Shown here piece by piece: positions 500-25,264 of a stretch of DNA of 33,208 nt. Position numbers and translations under genes: made by a program. The notes beneath the pieces were generated by a model. It made no database searches, was not told the DNA's origin, and worked only from the letters and a program-made list of their open reading frames with translations. Source of the stretch: Bacteroidia bacterium (GTDB taxonomy: Bacteria > Bacteroidota > Bacteroidia > Flavobacteriales > Flavobacteriaceae); assembly GCA_030429835.1 (NCBI GenBank), contig JAUIGC010000017.1, positions 1-33,208 on the forward strand. Reading direction: 5' to 3'. The number at the start of each line of letters is the position of its first letter. The first letter of the stretch is position 1.

Positions 500-1885
500 T
501 TAAAGGTTATTCCAATAAATATTGGAAAAGGCATCCACGATTATAGCATCCTTAGTAATAATGCATTTATTCATGGGATAGAGGATAAGCTTTTCGGTAA
601 GCTGTTCCAAATCGTCCGCTTTGTATTGGCTATGAGCATCAAAACCAAACTTATTAACTATGGTCTTCCAATTATTGGTTTCAGTCCTAAAATTAATACC
701 GATAAAATCATAGTCCGGTTTAAGCGCCTGCAACTCTTTAACACGGCTAAATATATTTTCATAATGGTTTTTATCCGTAGCGGACCAAAAGTAAAAGACA
801 ACTTTTTTATCCTTACTTAAAGAAGGAAGGGAGACCAAAGTATCGTTCATCGATACCACATTAATCTCAGGTATCGGACTATTGGGCTGAATATTACTAA
901 TACCGCTATACAACCTTTCAATCTCCTTAATATGCATATTGTTTCCAGATATCCTCTGGAATTTCTCTATAAATACTTTATTGCTGTCTGCATCGTGTTC
1001 TCGTAACAAATAGTTAAAGGCAACGTTCCTAAAAAGATTGTCCTTGAGTTCTTTTTCACCCACTAGACTATCAATAATAGCCAATTTATGTTGGTTAAAA
1101 TGTAATTGGTTATGGGCAGTACCAGCTTTTTTCCCGCAGAAATGAGAGCAGTTCATATAAGAAAGGTTTCCCATATGAGACTTCATAAAATTATAGTAGG
1201 GTCTAAGATAGATTAAGTTTTTGTTGTTATAATCTATTCCTTTTCTATAGGCATAAAAATCACTTGGTAAATCATGAAGTTCATCTTCACGTAAGGCACC
1301 CCTATGCTTAAATGGATAAATCTCCTTGAACCTGTAAAAGGTATAATTAATGCTTGCCTTGGCAATTTCGTAAGCGGTATTGGAAAGTTTGGCTTCCTTA
1401 TTTAATTCTTCGAGAGCTTGTAGCTTTTCATTTCGTAATTTCTCGATCTTTTCAGAAAAATCATCTCCTTCTAATTCATAAAGCTCAGAATACATTAATT
1501 GTTCCACCTCCTCATCTTCTAAAAAAACCTCTAATAGAAAATTATTTAATTCTTCATTTGTTCCTGAAAAAACCAATGATTCATCAAAATAGAGCGTATT
1601 TAAACGTATCCATACACTATCGCCTTTTTCTAAGTATACATACTGCTGCTCAGGATAGTGGTTGAAGTGGTATAAGCCATCACTTACGTTATCAAATTGG
1701 AAGGAGAACCGATTATCTTTGTCAAGTTTAGCAGAATCCAGAGCATCGCTTCCTTTGAAAAGCACTACATACTCACTTGTTGGATTGACAATTTCCCCAG
1801 CGAAGAAAACACTCTGATCATTGCTTTCAGGTGTATTACATCCAATTAAACATAAAGCAAGAGCAATAGGTAAAAATTTATCCAT
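500..1885 (-). CDS. Lipoprotein with C-terminal thioredoxin-like domain lacking the CxxC motif
   Basis: The protein is about 461 residues. A short signal peptide ends in the lipobox LIGC, so it should be lipid-anchored to an envelope membrane. An N-terminal beta-rich region (about residues 20-100) recalls the domain found before thioredoxin folds in Bacteroidota TlpA/ResA relatives. A long charged helical region follows, and the last 120 residues have a thioredoxin-like pattern: VVFYFWSA strand, helix, DFIGINF strand, and a YPMN loop at the cis-Pro position. The usual WCxxC is replaced by WSATDKNH, so normal disulfide chemistry is not expected. I chose the ATG at 1885 over the one at 1903 because it starts MDKF with a proper signal peptide and because the predicted -7 box at 1910-1917 would start transcription close to 1903. 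Function unknown. Confidence 0.8.
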   Translation of the reverse strand: MDKFLPIALALCLIGCNTPESNDQSVFFAGEIVNPTSEYVVLFKGSDALDSAKLDKDNRFSFQFDNVSDGLYHFNHYPEQQYVYLEKGDSVWIRLNTLYFDESLVFSGTNEELNNFLLEVFLEDEEVEQLMYSELYELEGDDFSEKIEKLRNEKLQALEELNKEAKLSNTAYEIAKASINYTFYRFKEIYPFKHRGALREDELHDLPSDFYAYRKGIDYNNKNLIYLRPYYNFMKSHMGNLSYMNCSHFCGKKAGTAHNQLHFNQHKLAIIDSLVGEKELKDNLFRNVAFNYLLREHDADSNKVFIEKFQRISGNNMHIKEIERLYSGISNIQPNSPIPEINVVSMNDTLVSLPSLSKDKKVVFYFWSATDKNHYENIFSRVKELQALKPDYDFIGINFRTETNNWKTIVNKFGFDAHSQYKADDLEQLTEKLILYPMNKCIITKDAIIVDAFSNIYWNNL

Positions 1886-1909
1886 ACACAAAATGGGCAA
1901 CATTTAGAC

Positions 1910-1917
1910 CAAAAATA
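1910..1917 (-). promoter_or_regulatory. Candidate -7 promoter box of the lipoprotein gene
   Basis: On the minus strand this reads TATTTTTG, matching the Bacteroidota -7 consensus TAnnTTTG. It would start transcription near 1906, giving a leader of about 20 bases to the ATG at 1885. No good -33 TTG was found at the expected distance, so the call is tentative. Confidence 0.4.
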
Positions 1918-2009
1918 AGGATACCACACTTCGCTCCTTGTTAATACCTAGTTAAAAATTAAAGGATTAGGGTGAAAGGCAGGTTGAAGGGGATGATATG
2001 TAATGTTTA

Positions 2010-2041
2010 TTGGTTTTCGCCTTTAAAATTCTGTATTTTTG
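2010..2041 (+). promoter_or_regulatory. Candidate promoter of the ABC-F gene (-33 TTG, -7 TATTTTTG)
   Basis: TTG at 2010-2012 and TATTTTTG at 2034-2041 are separated by 21 bases, within the spacing reported for Bacteroidota sigma-ABfr promoters. Transcription would start near 2045, about 20 bases before the ATG at 2065. This supports that start over the in-frame ATG at 1972, which would lie upstream of the promoter. Confidence 0.55.
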
Positions 2042-2064
2042 CACGGATTTTTAAACAGCACCTT

Positions 2065-3693
2065 ATGTTATCAGTATCCAATTTATCAGTTCAGTTTGGA
2101 AAAAGAATCTTATTCGATGAAGTCAACGTGTCCTTTACGGAGGGCAACTGCTATGGGATAATTGGAGCCAATGGAGCAGGGAAATCTACCTTTTTAAAAA
2201 TATTATCGGGACAGATGGACCCTACATCCGGACATGTACATCTGGAGCCTGGTAAAAGAATGTCCATTTTGGAGCAGGACCATAATGCTTCAGACGAATA
2301 CACCGTTCTGGAAACCGTGGTCAAAGGCAATAAGCCACTCTATGATATAAAAAAAGAAATTGATGCCTTGTATGCCGATTACAATGATGAAAATGCCGAT
2401 AGGATAGGGGAGCTGCAAGTGCAATTCGAAGAAATGAATGGGTGGAATGCAGATAGTGACGCCGCCGCTCTATTATCTAATTTGGGCATTGGTGAAGAAA
2501 TGCACTATACATTGATGTCCGAAATGGATTCCAAACTCAAGGTTAGGGTACTTTTGGCCCAGGCCCTTTTTGGTAGTCCCGATGTTTTGATCATGGATGA
2601 GCCCACCAACGATTTGGATTACGAGACCATCAATTGGTTGGAAAATTTTTTGGCCGATTATGAAAATACGGTAATCGTAGTCTCACATGACCGTCATTTC
2701 CTAGATACAGTCTGTACCCATATTGGGGATATTGACTTTGGTAAATTGAACCTTTATTCCGGTAATTACACTTTCTGGTATGAAAGTAGCCAGTTGGCGG
2801 CAAGACAAAGGGCGCAACAGAATAAAAAGGCAGAGGAAAAGGCCAAGGAGCTACAGGAATTCATTATGCGATTCAGTGCCAACGTGGCAAAAAGCAAGCA
2901 GGCCACCTCCAGAAAGAAAATGCTATCCAAATTAAAGGTGGATGACATAAAACCTTCCAGTAGAAGATATCCTGCCATTATTTTTGAGAGGGAACGTGAG
3001 GCCGGTGATCAAATATTGAATGTGGATGGTCTAAAAGCTACCACTGAGGAAGGCGAAGTTTTGTTTGACAATGTCAACATCAACTTGGCAAAAGGAGATA
3101 AAATAGCAGTTATTTCAAGGGATTCGAGGGCAACCACAGCCTTTTATGAAATCATCAACGGAAACAAAAAAGCGGACGAAGGAAATTACAATTGGGGAGT
3201 TACTACCACTCAATCCTATTTACCTGCGGACAATTCCAGTTTTTTTACCCAAGATATCAACTTGGTAGATTGGTTAAGACAATGGGCAAAGACCGAGGAG
3301 GAGCGCGAAGAAGTTTATATCAGGGGGTTTTTGGGTAAAATGTTGTTCAGTGGAGAAGAGGCCCTTAAAAAGTGTACCGTACTCTCTGGAGGAGAAAAAG
3401 TAAGGTGCATGTTAAGTAGAATGATGATGCTTAGAGCGAACGTGCTTATGTTGGATGAACCTACGAACCATTTAGATCTGGAAAGTATCACGGCATTCAA
3501 TAATTCCTTAAAGAATTTTAAGGGAACTGTGCTCTTCACCACCCATGATCACGAGTTTGCACAGACTGTTGCCAACAGAATCATAGAATTGACACCCAAA
3601 GGCAACATTGACCGATATTCTACGTTTGATGAATATATGTCGGACAAGGCATTGAAGGAACAGAGGGGCAAGATGTATGCTGTTCCAGCGTAA
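2065..3693 (+). CDS. ABC-F family ATPase (YbiT-like), with one degenerate composite ATP site
   Basis: The protein is 542 residues with two ABC ATPase domains in tandem and no membrane segments, as in the ribosome-associated ABC-F family. Domain 1 has an intact Walker A (GANGAGKST, 34-42), Walker B (LIMDEPTNDLD, about 175-185) and a switch His (VSHDRHF), but at the LSGG signature position it reads MDSK (154-157). Domain 2 has an intact signature (LSGGEK, 440-445), Walker B (LMLDEPTNHLD) and His (TTHDHEF), but its Walker A position reads SRDSRATTA (351-359) without the phosphate-binding Lys. A charged helical linker (about 240-300) joins the domains. The start at MLSVSN fits the family and the upstream promoter. 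ABC-F proteins act on translating ribosomes or confer antibiotic protection; which applies here is unknown. The lipoprotein gene 26 bases downstream may be cotranscribed. Confidence 0.95.
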   Translation: MLSVSNLSVQFGKRILFDEVNVSFTEGNCYGIIGANGAGKSTFLKILSGQMDPTSGHVHLEPGKRMSILEQDHNASDEYTVLETVVKGNKPLYDIKKEIDALYADYNDENADRIGELQVQFEEMNGWNADSDAAALLSNLGIGEEMHYTLMSEMDSKLKVRVLLAQALFGSPDVLIMDEPTNDLDYETINWLENFLADYENTVIVVSHDRHFLDTVCTHIGDIDFGKLNLYSGNYTFWYESSQLAARQRAQQNKKAEEKAKELQEFIMRFSANVAKSKQATSRKKMLSKLKVDDIKPSSRRYPAIIFEREREAGDQILNVDGLKATTEEGEVLFDNVNINLAKGDKIAVISRDSRATTAFYEIINGNKKADEGNYNWGVTTTQSYLPADNSSFFTQDINLVDWLRQWAKTEEEREEVYIRGFLGKMLFSGEEALKKCTVLSGGEKVRCMLSRMMMLRANVLMLDEPTNHLDLESITAFNNSLKNFKGTVLFTTHDHEFAQTVANRIIELTPKGNIDRYSTFDEYMSDKALKEQRGKMYAVPA

Positions 3694-21893: not shown

Positions 21894-22673
21894 CTAAACC
21901 GCCTCTTTCTTTTCACTGAGGTATTTCCAATAGCGTTTAGGCACATGCTGGTTATGTAATTTTTTATTGATACGGGATTTAATATTGGTGCTTTTAAAAT
22001 AGTTGCTCCATAATTGTTGATAATCATGCTCTTCATGTGTTAATAAAGAACTTTTCTGAATACTGTTCATCAAATTTTGGGATAAATCCATCGATATGAT
22101 TTCAACGCCGTTTAAATCATAATAAAGCCCGTATTTTCGCTTTATGTCATAGATAATCCATGGCTGGTCGGCATAGCGGTTCCTAAAATGTCTTGAAATG
22201 AGAGGAAGTACGTCAAAATCAGGTTCAATATTGGCAAAATAGATACCATCCTTGGTAAGCTGAAACCGTACAAAAGCTTCCATACGATGTTTTTCCCTAC
22301 TTACTTTTTGGGCAATTTGGTTTATCCTTAAAATACAGCTGTCAGAGAAATCCACACCGGCCTGTTTGGCCCCCATGATTTTTCTAATGTATTGATAGAG
22401 TAGGGGCTCCAAACCTTTTTCCCCGCTTAAAAAGGAAAAATAAATATGCTTTATAGCATTACTGTTACGGTCTTTTATTCCATTCCAAACCCTCTTGGCG
22501 GTGGCAATATTGGTAAAAATGGTTTCCGTCTCGGAAAAAAGACCGTTTTGGGCCATGCGTTCCTTTTGGATATCAACAACCATCAATTTTTGATCAAAAC
22601 CGGAAAATACGGCTGTCAAGAAACCATTGAAGCTTCCATCATAAATAAATGTTTTTGTAACGTTCGTAGTCAT
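21894..22673 (-). CDS. DUF4130 / TIGR03915-type putative DNA metabolism protein
   Basis: The 259-residue protein has the family's features: an opening YDGSFNGFLTAVFSGF (11-26), the KVSREKHRMEAFVRFQL stretch (123-139), DGIYFANIEPDFDVLPLISRHFRNRYADQPWIIYDIKRKYGLYYD (142-186), and a C-terminal YxxLWxxYFKSTNIKSRINxKxxxxHVPKRYWKYLSE. It is cytosolic. From established family knowledge, these proteins occur together with the radical SAM partner found just upstream here, and some versions are fused to a uracil-DNA glycosylase-like domain; this one is not fused. The start is 5 bases after the radical SAM stop, so the two are translated from one transcript. The activity is unproven; a DNA repair or modification role is the standing prediction. 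Alternative start codons were not seen. Confidence 0.9.
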   Translation of the reverse strand: MTTNVTKTFIYDGSFNGFLTAVFSGFDQKLMVVDIQKERMAQNGLFSETETIFTNIATAKRVWNGIKDRNSNAIKHIYFSFLSGEKGLEPLLYQYIRKIMGAKQAGVDFSDSCILRINQIAQKVSREKHRMEAFVRFQLTKDGIYFANIEPDFDVLPLISRHFRNRYADQPWIIYDIKRKYGLYYDLNGVEIISMDLSQNLMNSIQKSSLLTHEEHDYQQLWSNYFKSTNIKSRINKKLHNQHVPKRYWKYLSEKKEAV

Positions 22674-22678
22674 ACCAT

Positions 22679-23938
22679 TTAGTTAAAAAGTGATAATTGA
22701 TTGGAATATGAATTCCTAAACTTTCCGTAGGATGTGCTTAAAATCAATCCTTTAATACGTTCCGCATCCAAATCCCTTCTTTCCCAGTACCTGGAATCAC
22801 AAAGGATAAAATATTTGGCCCTGTTTAAGGCTACGCCCATTTTCTTTAAGTGGTCCCAATCCAACTTTCTAAACTTTCTGGCATTTAAAATCTTATTGAC
22901 GGAATTCATACCTATGCCGGGAATACGTGCCAAAAGTGATTTATCAGCCCTATTGATATCCACAGGAAAATGTTGAAGGTTTCTAAGGGCCCATCCCAAT
23001 TTTGGATCTATGTCCATATCGAGATTGGGGTATTCATTGTTAAGTATCTCGTTCACGGAAAATCCATAAAAACGCAACAACCAATCGGTTTGATATAGTC
23101 TGTTCTCCCTCAACATGGGTACCTGGGTACCGATTGCAGGGAGGCGATTATCTTTCATTACCGGCACATACCCGGAATAATACACCCTTTTCATGTGGAA
23201 ATTTTTATAAAAATGGGTGGCAGAGTACATAATATCCTTGTCAGATTCACCCGTTGCACCCACTATCATTTGGGTACTTTGGCCAGCAGGCGCATAAGTG
23301 GGCGTGCTTTTTATCAATTTTTTCTCTGATTTATAACGCAGGATTTCGTCCTTCACCTTGCGCATGGGTTTGGCAAAATCCTCATGATTTTTATCGGGAG
23401 CCAAAAGTTTTAGGCCGGATATTGTGGGGATTTCAATGTTTACCGACAAGCGGTCCGCATATAATCCGGCCTCATACATCAATTCGTCACTAGCTCCGGG
23501 AATCGACTTTAAATGAATATAACCGTTAAAATTTTCCTCGGTACGTAATTTTTTGGCCACGGTAATAAGACGTTCCATGGTATAATCTGGATTCTTAAAA
23601 ATACCTGAACTTAAAAAAAGGCCTTCGATATAATTTCTTCTGTAAAAATTTATGGTCAGGTCCACCACTTCCTGAATTTTAAAAGCAGCGCGTTTTACAT
23701 CATTGCTTTTTCGGGTGACACAGTAAGCGCAATCATAAATACAGTGATTGGTCAATAGAATCTTTAAGAGGGAAATACACCTTCCATCTTCCGCATAACT
23801 ATGACAGATACCGTTGCTGGCATTGCCAAGACCGTTATTTTTATTCTGCCTATTACTGCCACTGCTAGAGCAGGATACATCATACTTGGCGGCATCCGCC
23901 AAAATATTGAGCTTCTCCTTGATTCGGTTATAATCCAT
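22679..23938 (-). CDS. Putative DNA modification/repair radical SAM protein (TIGR03916-like)
   Basis: The 419-residue protein has a radical SAM cluster motif CIYDCAYC (Cys66, Cys70, Cys73) preceded by three further cysteines in GICHSYAEDGRC and near residue 23, which could hold a second cluster. A partial TIM barrel follows (LFLSSGIF, GYIHLKSIPGAS, RLSVNIEIPT, TQMIVGATGE). Residues about 327-352 form a helix-hairpin-helix DNA-binding element (DINRADKSLLARIPGIGMNSVNKIL). The C-terminus is QLSLFN, whose QLSLF (414-418) is the consensus for binding the DNA polymerase sliding clamp. The domain order fits the family called a putative DNA modification/repair radical SAM protein. It is the first gene of a two-gene operon and diverges from a LexA-like repressor. 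The chemistry is unknown. Confidence 0.93.
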   Translation of the reverse strand: MDYNRIKEKLNILADAAKYDVSCSSSGSNRQNKNNGLGNASNGICHSYAEDGRCISLLKILLTNHCIYDCAYCVTRKSNDVKRAAFKIQEVVDLTINFYRRNYIEGLFLSSGIFKNPDYTMERLITVAKKLRTEENFNGYIHLKSIPGASDELMYEAGLYADRLSVNIEIPTISGLKLLAPDKNHEDFAKPMRKVKDEILRYKSEKKLIKSTPTYAPAGQSTQMIVGATGESDKDIMYSATHFYKNFHMKRVYYSGYVPVMKDNRLPAIGTQVPMLRENRLYQTDWLLRFYGFSVNEILNNEYPNLDMDIDPKLGWALRNLQHFPVDINRADKSLLARIPGIGMNSVNKILNARKFRKLDWDHLKKMGVALNRAKYFILCDSRYWERRDLDAERIKGLILSTSYGKFRNSYSNQLSLFN

Positions 23939-23955
23939 GTTTATTGTAATAATTC

Positions 23956-23963
23956 CAAAATTA
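23956..23963 (-). promoter_or_regulatory. Candidate -7 box of the radical SAM operon
   Basis: The minus strand reads TAATTTTG, an exact TAnnTTTG match. The predicted start near 23952 leaves a leader of about 14 bases, in line with other genes here. The repeat at 23965-23975 abuts it and the next repeat lies about where a -33 element would be. A second match, TAAATTTG at 24000-23993, is possible but would give a leader of about 50 bases. Confidence 0.5.
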
Positions 23964-23964
23964 T

Positions 23965-24016
23965 GGAAATATTCCTAATTATGGAAATAATCCAAATTTA
24001 TTTTTGGAAATAATCC
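23965..24016. promoter_or_regulatory. Operator array: three GGAAATAWTCC repeats
   Basis: GGAAATATTCC is at 23965-23975, GGAAATAATCC at 23983-23993 and again at 24006-24016. Each has dyad symmetry (GGA-N5-TCC; the last two extend to TGGA-N5-TCCA). The first two lie on the radical SAM promoter and the third between the -33 and -7 boxes of the repressor. A looser copy, GGTTATAATCC (23926-23936), overlaps the radical SAM start codon. The arrangement fits a repressor acting on both sides; the binder is inferred to be the adjacent XRE-S24 protein. Confidence 0.7.
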
Positions 24017-24032
24017 ATAATGAGTATATTTG
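24003..24032 (+). promoter_or_regulatory. Promoter of the XRE-S24 repressor, probably leaderless
   Basis: TTTG (24003-24006) and TATATTTG (24025-24032) are separated by 18 bases and both match the Bacteroidota consensus exactly. The -7 box ends 3 bases before the ATG at 24036, so transcription should begin at or next to the start codon. The third operator copy occupies the spacer, which suggests autorepression. Confidence 0.6.
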
Positions 24033-24035
24033 AGT

Positions 24036-24800
24036 ATGGAAAACGAACTGACACTCAAAAGATTTACCGATCTGCGAAGGGATTTGGGGTATACCCAAGC
24101 GGAATTCGCTGAACTTCTTGGTGTAAAAAATACCACTGCAGATATTGAAAGGGGACGAACCAAACTTTCCGGGAAAGTGGTTTCGGAGCTTCTGAAACAA
24201 TTCAAAATAAACCCTCTATGGTTATTTGGGGAAAGCGACAATCAGTATTTGGAAACTTCCCAGGTCAGTGTCATTCCCAAAGTGGTTACTGTAGATAGCG
24301 CCGACCGTGACAATATGGTTCTAGTTAACGCAAAGGCCGCCGCCGGATATCCCCAAAACATATCCGATACAAGTTGGTACCAGCAACTACCCGCATTTGA
24401 TTTGCCCATACCGGAGTTTAGAAATGCTACGTATCGCGGTTTTCAAGTGGAAGGAGATAGTATGCTTCCCAATCTAAGACCTGGCGAGTGGGTTTTGGCC
24501 AGGGCCATTGAACACATAGACCACGTGAGTGCCAACAAAATGTACGTGGTGGTTTTACAGGATTCCGTCATGGTCAAAAAAATTGAAAAAAGACCAAATT
24601 CCAATAACATTACTTTGGTATCCCTGAACGAGGCTTACCCGCCTTATGACATTAAACCATTTTTGATACAGGAAATATGGGAAGTAAGTAGCAAGATTAC
24701 ATTCAACGTAGATGCAACCACTGATAGTGGCCTTTTACGACAGCTACAGGAATCCATGCAAGAGCTTAAAAGCCAATTGCAGCACGTTAAAAAAGTATAA
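24036..24800 (+). CDS. LexA/CI-like XRE-family repressor with S24 peptidase domain
   Basis: The 254-residue protein has an N-terminal helix-turn-helix of XRE type (about 7-60, FTDLRRDLGYTQAEFAELLGVKNTTADIERGRTKLSG). A linker leads to an S24/LexA-like C-terminal domain with a potential autocleavage Ala103-Gly104 (KAAAGYPQ), the nucleophile Ser142 in EGDSMLPNLRPG and the general-base Lys181 in VMVKKIEKR. The spacing of these three is close to that of LexA and CI. A coiled-coil tail (about 232-254) may help oligomerise. Such proteins dimerise on operators and cleave themselves when RecA filaments form after DNA damage. The ATG at 24036 is required for the helix-turn-helix; a TTG at 24030 is the alternative. 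It diverges from the radical SAM operon across the operator array, and overlaps the convergent GNAT gene by 14 bases. Confidence 0.93.
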   Translation: MENELTLKRFTDLRRDLGYTQAEFAELLGVKNTTADIERGRTKLSGKVVSELLKQFKINPLWLFGESDNQYLETSQVSVIPKVVTVDSADRDNMVLVNAKAAAGYPQNISDTSWYQQLPAFDLPIPEFRNATYRGFQVEGDSMLPNLRPGEWVLARAIEHIDHVSANKMYVVVLQDSVMVKKIEKRPNSNNITLVSLNEAYPPYDIKPFLIQEIWEVSSKITFNVDATTDSGLLRQLQESMQELKSQLQHVKKV

Positions 24801-25227
24801 GATTTAATTTTTTAATATAAAGTCCGCTGTTCTTCAAGGTAAAGCCGAGACTTTTATAAAGACTGATAGCGGCAGTTCGATGATGCCCACTGAAAAGGAG
24901 CACATCATTAAGCTCCCTTTTTTCTGCCTGTTGAAGTAATTTTTCCATTAGTTTTCTCCCGATTCCCTTGCCCCTATGGGATTCCGAAACAATAACATCC
25001 TCAATCATTCCTTTATAACCAGATACGACCTTGTAATTTGCCATCATTGCAATACCAACCAGTTCTTTATTATCAAAACAGGCACCTATATCAATAAATT
25101 CTTCATCATTCAATATTTCTTCCAAGGAAAGTTGTTTCAGTTCGGAATTAAGTTGCAGATATAACTTGGATAGTTGTTCCTGTACATCCCGGGTTAAATC
25201 CTTTTTAGCTAAAAGTTTAATTTCCAT
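24787..25227 (-). CDS. GNAT-family N-acetyltransferase
   Basis: The 146-residue enzyme transfers an acetyl group from acetyl-CoA to an amine. The GNAT pattern is complete: ELVGIAMM strand, GMIEDVIVSESHRGKGIGRKLM with the acetyl-CoA pyrophosphate-binding R-G-K-G-I-G (85-90), NDVLLFSGHHRTAAISLYKSLGF as the closing motif B, and a terminal strand. I chose the Met at 25227 because the upstream in-frame extension runs through the hexamer repeat and the neighbouring gene and contains no GNAT sequence. The substrate is unknown; similar proteins acetylate small amines or glucosamine-type substrates. The last 14 bases overlap the end of the repressor gene on the other strand. Confidence 0.9.
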   Translation of the reverse strand: MEIKLLAKKDLTRDVQEQLSKLYLQLNSELKQLSLEEILNDEEFIDIGACFDNKELVGIAMMANYKVVSGYKGMIEDVIVSESHRGKGIGRKLMEKLLQQAEKRELNDVLLFSGHHRTAAISLYKSLGFTLKNSGLYIKKLNLILF

Positions 25228-25264
25228 TGTTTTGGCAGTTGGAATTTTTAATTTGTTTATTAGG

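Follow-up and report, generated by a model that had tools for sequence, protein, structure and literature searches.

A predicted SOS repressor and a radical SAM-DUF4130 pair diverge over shared operators in a flavobacterial genome

Introduction

What do a radical SAM protein and a DUF4130 protein do together, and under whose control do they do it? The question is raised by contig JAUIGC010000017.1 of assembly GCA_030429835.1, a stretch of 33,208 nucleotides from a marine member of the Flavobacteriaceae (the window in what follows), in which the genes of two such proteins, on the same strand and 5 bases apart (22674-22678), diverge from the gene of an XRE-S24 protein. The window is one contig of a 3.56 Mb draft genome (337 contigs; 82.55% complete), and a search of genome contigs finds the best matches of its radical SAM protein in Maribacter and Allomuricauda/Flagellimonas. 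An earlier note on this DNA had proposed that the pair forms an SOS-like regulon of its own and that a missing glycosylase acts in trans.

Part of the answer has been published. Sanchez-Osuna 2021 describes two non-canonical LexA classes in Bacteroidetes (PMC8565304). According to the available text of that paper, the class found mainly in Flavobacteriaceae binds the dyad GGA-N5-TCC in electrophoretic mobility shift assays (EMSA), the regulator and its targets are induced by mitomycin C, and the predicted regulon includes the regulator's own gene, DinB, SplB, SRAP and UmuDC, as well as COG1573-COG4277, an operon of two genes labelled "UDG base excision" (UDG, uracil-DNA glycosylase); the second operator motif is CTAA-N5-TTAG. 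DUF4130 was linked in a 2013 paper to SplB-like radical SAM proteins and uracil glycosylases (PMC3765255, in its available text), and UdgX is described as a cross-linking UDG (PMC10359453, PMC10776899, likewise). We infer that the TIGR03916/TIGR03915 pair of the window is the COG4277-COG1573 operon; LexA-type control of the pair is already in print for the phylum, and it is the pair's chemistry that is of new interest. Our reading, which we hold to be very probable, is that flavobacteria use the S24 protein as the SOS repressor of its own gene, of the radical SAM-DUF4130 operon and of other operons, and that the pair acts on a lesion without a dedicated glycosylase.

The regulator and the shared spacer

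The arrangement that the earlier note had described, including a helix-hairpin-helix in the radical SAM protein, is borne out by the coordinates of the open reading frames (ORFs) and by family scores. The radical SAM ORF scores 673.2 bits with TIGR03916 (cut-off 343.5) and also matches PF04055, and the DUF4130 ORF scores 265.2 bits with TIGR03915 (cut-off 112.25) and 179.2 bits with PF13566 (cut-off 27). The S24 protein matches HTH_3 (PF01381, 34.0 bits) and Peptidase_S24 (PF00717, 49.7 bits), both above cut-off. A canonical LexA is ruled out for it, with no winged helix-turn-helix PF01726 and just Peptidase_S24, HTH_3 and HTH_19 matched at E ≤0.001. Across the aligned regulators A103, G104 and S142 are present in 24 of 24 and K181 in 23, the exception being the distant regulator of locus L065 (L, G and C numbers are our handles for loci, genomes and contigs). 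The ORF list begins the S24 frame at a TTG at 24030 (+); the true start is likely the ATG at 24036, since homologues begin MENE.. at that point. The assembly contains recA, and its only other Peptidase_S24 match is the C-terminus of a helicase. Most likely, it is the S24 protein that serves these bacteria as repressor instead of LexA.

The helicase is an observation in its own right. It belongs to the Schlafen-group-3 helicases (PF09848; L012, G000:C38:8708-12088, about 1447-3381, minus strand), has a C-terminal S24 domain with Ala-Gly and a GESM motif, gives weak PADLOC matches to AbiO and Nhi, and may be a damage-cleavable helicase.

The divergent spacer (23939-24035, 97 bases) is, as the earlier note had it, full of operator-like repeats: it holds three exact copies of GGA-N5-TCC, arranged as the direct repeat D1 and matching the published operator. 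Since this trio is the motif proven by EMSA, and given the published regulon list, damage-inducible control of the pair is well supported, but known (PMC8565304, available text). Such a trio is not expected by chance: among 200,000 first-order Markov sequences derived from the spacer none contained three copies, 42 contained two and 4,295 one. The whole window has 11 copies, of which the spacer trio falls inside 52 bases, while no other two lie within 300 bases. With TTG as the -33 promoter element, we propose from the letters that the operators overlap or abut promoter elements of both divergent promoters (Table 1). The -7 boxes resemble TAnnTTTG, the consensus mapped in Flavobacterium psychrophilum (PMC9723704, available text). 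In four loci with a longer S24 leader (L027-L030) the TATATTTG box keeps its place beside operator 3 and not beside the start codon, and because it tracks the operator in this way it supports a real S24 promoter.

Conservation and regulator-operator covariation

The earlier note had looked to related genomes for an S24 neighbour and for the same repeat upstream of the pair, and relatives keep both. A scan of genome contigs with the radical SAM protein yielded 58 related loci, with DUF4130 downstream of the radical SAM gene in 55 (at most 324 bases away, except in L047, at 890) and an S24 gene as the divergent neighbour in 23. The spacer of 22 of these 23 contains two to four GGA-N5-TCC, and that of the remaining one (L065) contains CTAA-N5-TTAG. 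Over all 58 loci, the radical SAM gene is preceded by GGA-N5-TCC in 27 (76 sites) and by CTAA-N5-TTAG in six (nine sites), compared with 0-2 loci for each of six control patterns (reversed dyad 2, N4 spacer 0, N6 spacer 1). Despite varying spacer length, GGA sites lie at most 4 bases off positions -80, -57 and -39 from the radical SAM start in 18 of 22 loci.

The match between regulator and operator extends to genomes in which the two are apart. We searched 22 whole genomes (those of 21 of the 35 loci without an adjacent S24 gene, plus that of L065) with an S24 profile at E ≤1e-10. Five encode a GGA-type regulator elsewhere (L038, L039, L042, L058, L071), 60.6-62.5% identical to that of the window and each preceded, within 300 bases, by two or more GGA-N5-TCC of its own. 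The pair carries the GGA operator in 5/5 of these genomes and in 0/17 of the rest (Fisher P = 3.8e-5, uncorrected for kinship, three of the five being Salinimicrobium). In the five genomes that gave no regulator hit (L036, L040, L043, L045, L072) the pair carries neither GGA-N5-TCC nor CTAA-N5-TTAG. The other twelve have only a distant regulator (26-34% identical), and six of them have CTAA-N5-TTAG at the pair.

Two loci fall outside the expected taxonomy. L065 (JAFGBR010000039.1), from a metagenome-assembled genome of Marinilabiliaceae, which we count within Bacteroidales, has the same divergent S24-radical SAM layout, with CTAA-N5-TTAG operators and a regulator 26% identical; the layout could be a binning error. 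Both non-canonical LexA classes are reported absent from Bacteroidales in the available text of PMC8565304. L035 (CATLPG010000082.1), titled Saccharospirillaceae, holds an S24-radical SAM-DUF4130 locus with a radical SAM protein 78% identical to the window's and two GGA-N5-TCC sites, and is misbinned or transferred.

The regulon beyond the pair

The window's genome has two GGA-N5-TCC sites ahead of a SRAP gene (L005) and two ahead of a PA0069-family radical SAM gene (L018; 462.6 vs 360 bits), which we take to be the "SplB" (COG1533) of the 2021 paper. Among four congeners, 97-100% complete, paired sites mark the pair/S24 locus in 4/4, a Y-family polymerase in 4/4 and SRAP in 3/4, and the reversed pattern has no match in five genomes. 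The paired-site pattern undercounts, missing the sites at SRAP and the PA0069-family gene of the window's genome, where the inner letters or their order differ. Paired operators at these other operons are a strong argument against a separate regulon, and a private regulon is thus rejected; what stands of the earlier proposal is LexA-like S24 control of the pair, carried by the 23 divergent neighbours and by the covariation of regulator and operator.

Single-site patterns across this genome are noisy. WTGGAAATANTCC occurs at 10 places, five of them accounted for by the spacer operators (three) and the SRAP sites (two); of the remainder, L001, L003, L004 and L010 lie within ORFs and L002 some 200 bases upstream of a family-less ORF. 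A second single-site pattern occurs at six distinct places, among them the PA0069-family gene (L018), three places within ORFs (L015, L016, L017) and one just upstream of a thioredoxin-like gene (L014). The sixth (L013, G000:C36:21625-21641), a single GGA-N5-TCC palindrome, stands about 120 bases upstream of an ORF of the DNA polymerase III alpha type, whose N-terminus carries exonuclease and PHP domains and which may be a member of the regulon. Among the congeners, the paired-site pattern also picks out L135 (G053:C1:571859-571888), where two GGA-N5-TCC sites immediately precede a 101-aa ORF that matches no family of Pfam or NCBIfam and is a candidate for a new SOS gene.

Table 1. Features of the locus (positions in the window)
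Feature	Position	Strand	Remarks
TIGR03915/DUF4130 protein	21894..22673	-	259 aa; no UDG domain; AlphaFold2 model resembles the DHH (RecJ/Cdc45) fold
TIGR03916 radical SAM protein	22679..23938	-	419 aa; C-terminal helix-hairpin-helix; CX3CX2C = C65/C69/C72, plus invariant Cys 22, 44, 53
-7 box-like TAATTTTG, radical SAM promoter	23956..23963	-	consensus TAnnTTTG; abuts operator 1
Operator 1, GGAAATATTCC	23965..23975	strandless	GGA-N5-TCC
Operator 2, GGAAATAATCC	23983..23993	strandless	GGA-N5-TCC
Operator 3, GGAAATAATCC	24006..24016	strandless	between TTG (24004-24006) and the -7 box of the S24 promoter
-7 box-like TATATTTG, S24 promoter	24025..24032	+	just ahead of the S24 start
XRE-S24 repressor	24036..24800	+	254 aa; putative non-canonical LexA of the GGA-N5-TCC class; predicted A103-G104 scissile bond and S142/K181 dyad

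On its far side the S24 gene converges with a GNAT acetyltransferase gene (window 24787-25248, minus strand), and small proteins similar to this acetyltransferase stand at the matching position in four congeners (L138, L143, L144, L145).

Does the pair need a glycosylase?

The label of the published operon, and the pairing of DUF4130 with UDG in the literature, direct attention first to uracil. The DUF4130 protein of the window matches neither TIGR03914 nor PF03167 at E ≤0.001, and among 40 aligned proteins all match DUF4130 and none matches PF03167 at E ≤0.01. Of 296 sampled Bacteroidota genomes 96 contain TIGR03915, and in 95 of these the open frame is at most 371 aa, the unfused length, so that the glycosylase which the earlier note called missing is not simply missing. 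The sole exception (G298, C1:402739-403605) has its TIGR03915 match in two pieces within a 478-aa frame, possibly a fusion or an insertion. The "UDG" of the published operon may accordingly be no more than an effect of the COG label. The absence of a UDG domain from that operon was not found described in open-licence papers of PubMed Central (PMC), supplements apart, and no paper joining UdgX with a radical SAM protein was found in the same open-licence literature.

The alternative that survives best is that the pair belongs to a uracil-DNA base-excision system in which a UDG encoded elsewhere does the glycosylase step; we think it rather unlikely, though it keeps a real chance. Among 37 plasmid records with a DUF4130 match, the matched gene is annotated as UdgX family in 21, which we take from their names to be Alpha- and Betaproteobacteria, and as TIGR03915 in six; these annotations fit a DUF4130-UdgX fusion in Proteobacteria. 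Base excision is also the published reading of COG1573-COG4277 (PMC8565304, available text), and some PF03167 protein occurs in 47 of 48 surveyed genomes, so a general-purpose UDG may act downstream of the pair. On the other side, the window's own assembly, 82.55% complete, has no PF03167 match; the UdgX model exceeds its cut-off in 0/296 Bacteroidota genomes, weaker UDG matches occurring in 218; and an A/T-core operator is found within 300 bases upstream of none of 20 free-standing UDG genes (the best 20 places), one of which (L095) is preceded at 275 bases by a dyad match whose core is not A/T and which falls within an adjacent ORF. The idea of the earlier note that a glycosylase acts in trans, and more precisely under the same control, finds no support in these counts.

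The DUF4130 protein: a predicted DHH fold

The predicted structure of DUF4130 offers a further lead. The AlphaFold2 model (pLDDT 84.4, pTM 0.73) has no Foldseek match at E ≤0.001; the top hit is PAP phosphatase (E 1.1e-3, TM (query) 0.44), followed by RecJ2, RecJ and Cdc45. In VIA the best Z is 9.1 (rmsd, root-mean-square deviation, 4.2 over 178 residues) and RecJ reaches 8.3, on a scale where models that match nothing clearly often reach a top Z of 7-8. Rows 1-49 of the 50 are DHH proteins by title or replisome and replication chains, the latter presumably Cdc45 or GAN. Because the match list is so uniform, we regard it as a good lead, short of proof, that residues 1-210 of the modelled protein share the DHH (RecJ/Cdc45) fold.

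The DHH superfamily is marked by the DHH motif and by the acidic residues of motifs I-IV. Neither the catalytic motif nor these acidic residues are conserved in residues 1-100 of DUF4130, where D11 and G16 are the only invariant residues and no His reaches 90%; with a single invariant acid and no conserved His, the DHH metal site is therefore not conserved. Sequence comparison lends no support, and its positive control was weak: hhalign of DUF4130 against NrnA and RecJ sets gives a probability below 1%, against only 11.8% for the control (NrnA vs RecJ), DUF4130 proteins have no DHH Pfam match, and a PDB sequence search with the DUF4130 profile returns chance-level hits only (S100-A6, E ≥0.33). 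A DHH fold of DUF4130 was not found described in open-licence PMC papers, supplements apart.

The radical SAM protein

Besides C65/C69/C72, Cys 22, 44 and 53 are invariant in 40/40 radical SAM homologues, and these three extra cysteines suggest a second metal centre. With HydE, lipoyl synthase and biotin synthase the model of the protein (pLDDT 77.7) gives matches at Z about 14-16. NCBI names the protein "putative DNA modification/repair", and no substrate for the pair was found in the open-licence PMC literature, both of which leave room for a second alternative, namely that the pair modifies undamaged DNA or serves defence and that its damage control is incidental. We consider this improbable: the pair has its operators in common with SRAP, polymerase and PA0069-family genes, and neither the radical SAM nor the DUF4130 protein has a PADLOC match at E ≤0.01, on which ground a defence system is rejected.

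Discussion

The third alternative, which makes the S24 protein a local repressor of phage origin for itself and the neighbouring pair only, draws on the divergent adjacency over a common spacer kept in 23 of 58 loci and on an N-terminal domain resembling the phage C2 and 434 repressors, and is more improbable still, given the paired operators at SRAP and the PA0069-family gene here and at the Y-family polymerase and SRAP in congeners, and the non-adjacent regulators that match the GGA operator at the pair in 5/5 genomes.

Several points nevertheless weigh against a general SOS repressor controlling a repair pair. First of all, the 300 bases ahead of DinB (L097) and of recA (L176) in this assembly contain no operator; recA is not induced in S. 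agarivorans either, according to the available text of PMC8565304. Second, the pair lacks both motifs in six of the twelve genomes with a distant regulator (L037, L047, L049, L050, L051, L052), among which that of L052 even has a CTAA-autoregulated regulator (L154); from this and the other motif-less loci it follows that control of the pair is not universal. Third, a single family (f24), which lies outside the window's class and outside the regulator search, accounts for 57 of the 96 Bacteroidota genomes with TIGR03915. Finally, the HHH_3 match of the radical SAM protein, at 27 bits, is exactly at cut-off, and for neither repair protein did a search of the PDB by sequence turn up a close relative of solved structure.

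With an SOS repressor of wider reach as the preferred reading, the locus would work as follows. The S24 protein would bind the three spacer operators and repress its own gene together with the radical SAM-DUF4130 operon; operator binding and mitomycin C induction, published for relatives, would hold here by analogy. DNA damage would activate RecA, whose filaments would stimulate self-cleavage of the S24 protein at A103-G104. Cleavage would then open both promoters, along with those of the other regulon operons (SRAP and the PA0069-family gene here, the Y-family polymerase and SRAP in congeners). Once induced, the radical SAM enzyme, with its helix-hairpin-helix, would work on a damaged nucleotide by SAM-dependent radical chemistry, and DUF4130 would be its DNA-binding partner, with no dedicated glycosylase taking part.

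More tentatively, and with somewhat less than even confidence, we suggest that the SOS "UDG" operon of Flavobacteriaceae is a two-protein machine without a glycosylase, made up of a radical SAM enzyme with a possible second metal centre and a degenerate DHH-fold DNA-binding subunit, which would act at stalled forks, either reversing a lesion or trimming it, UdgX having been recruited in some Proteobacteria only.

These results place a poorly understood repair pair firmly within the bacterial SOS response. The layout is the simplest one, a repressor and its target with operators in common, and thereby offers a small locus for asking what the pair repairs. In the sampled Bacteroidota the partner of the radical SAM protein is almost always without a UDG domain, and the inference in print that counts uracil-DNA glycosylases among the common outputs of SOS therefore needs another look. 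The DHH fold of DUF4130, if true, would provide a structural handle on a domain for which searches gave none.

Comparison with known systems

Both proteins of the pair score far above the curated cut-offs of TIGR03916 and TIGR03915 (rSAM_link_UDG / SAM_7_link_chp) and, like the pair so defined, are adjacent and on the same strand; unlike the label, the pair of the window has no fused UDG domain. It has the DUF4130 module in common with the UdgX-DUF4130 proteins of Proteobacteria, which are annotated as UdgX whereas the window protein is without a UDG domain. With the DHH superfamily (RecJ, Cdc45, PAP phosphatase, NrnA) the predicted fold is alike, but the DUF4130 protein of the window has neither the DHH motif nor a profile match. 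SplB, the spore photoproduct lyase, resembles the radical SAM protein in its radical SAM chemistry class and DNA-damage context; the window protein differs in belonging to another NCBI family, in its C-terminal helix-hairpin-helix and in the three extra invariant Cys.

The closest likeness is that of the regulator. As described in the available text of PMC8565304, the S. agarivorans DSM 23515 regulator WP_075324850.1 combines HTH_3 and S24 domains, Ala-Gly, Ser-Lys and autoregulation through GGA-N5-TCC, and GGA-class LexA proteins govern a regulon with DinB, SRAP and the COG1573-COG4277 operon, all of which the system of the window resembles. It departs from that description in that the regulator adjoins and diverges from the repair pair itself, with three operators common to both.

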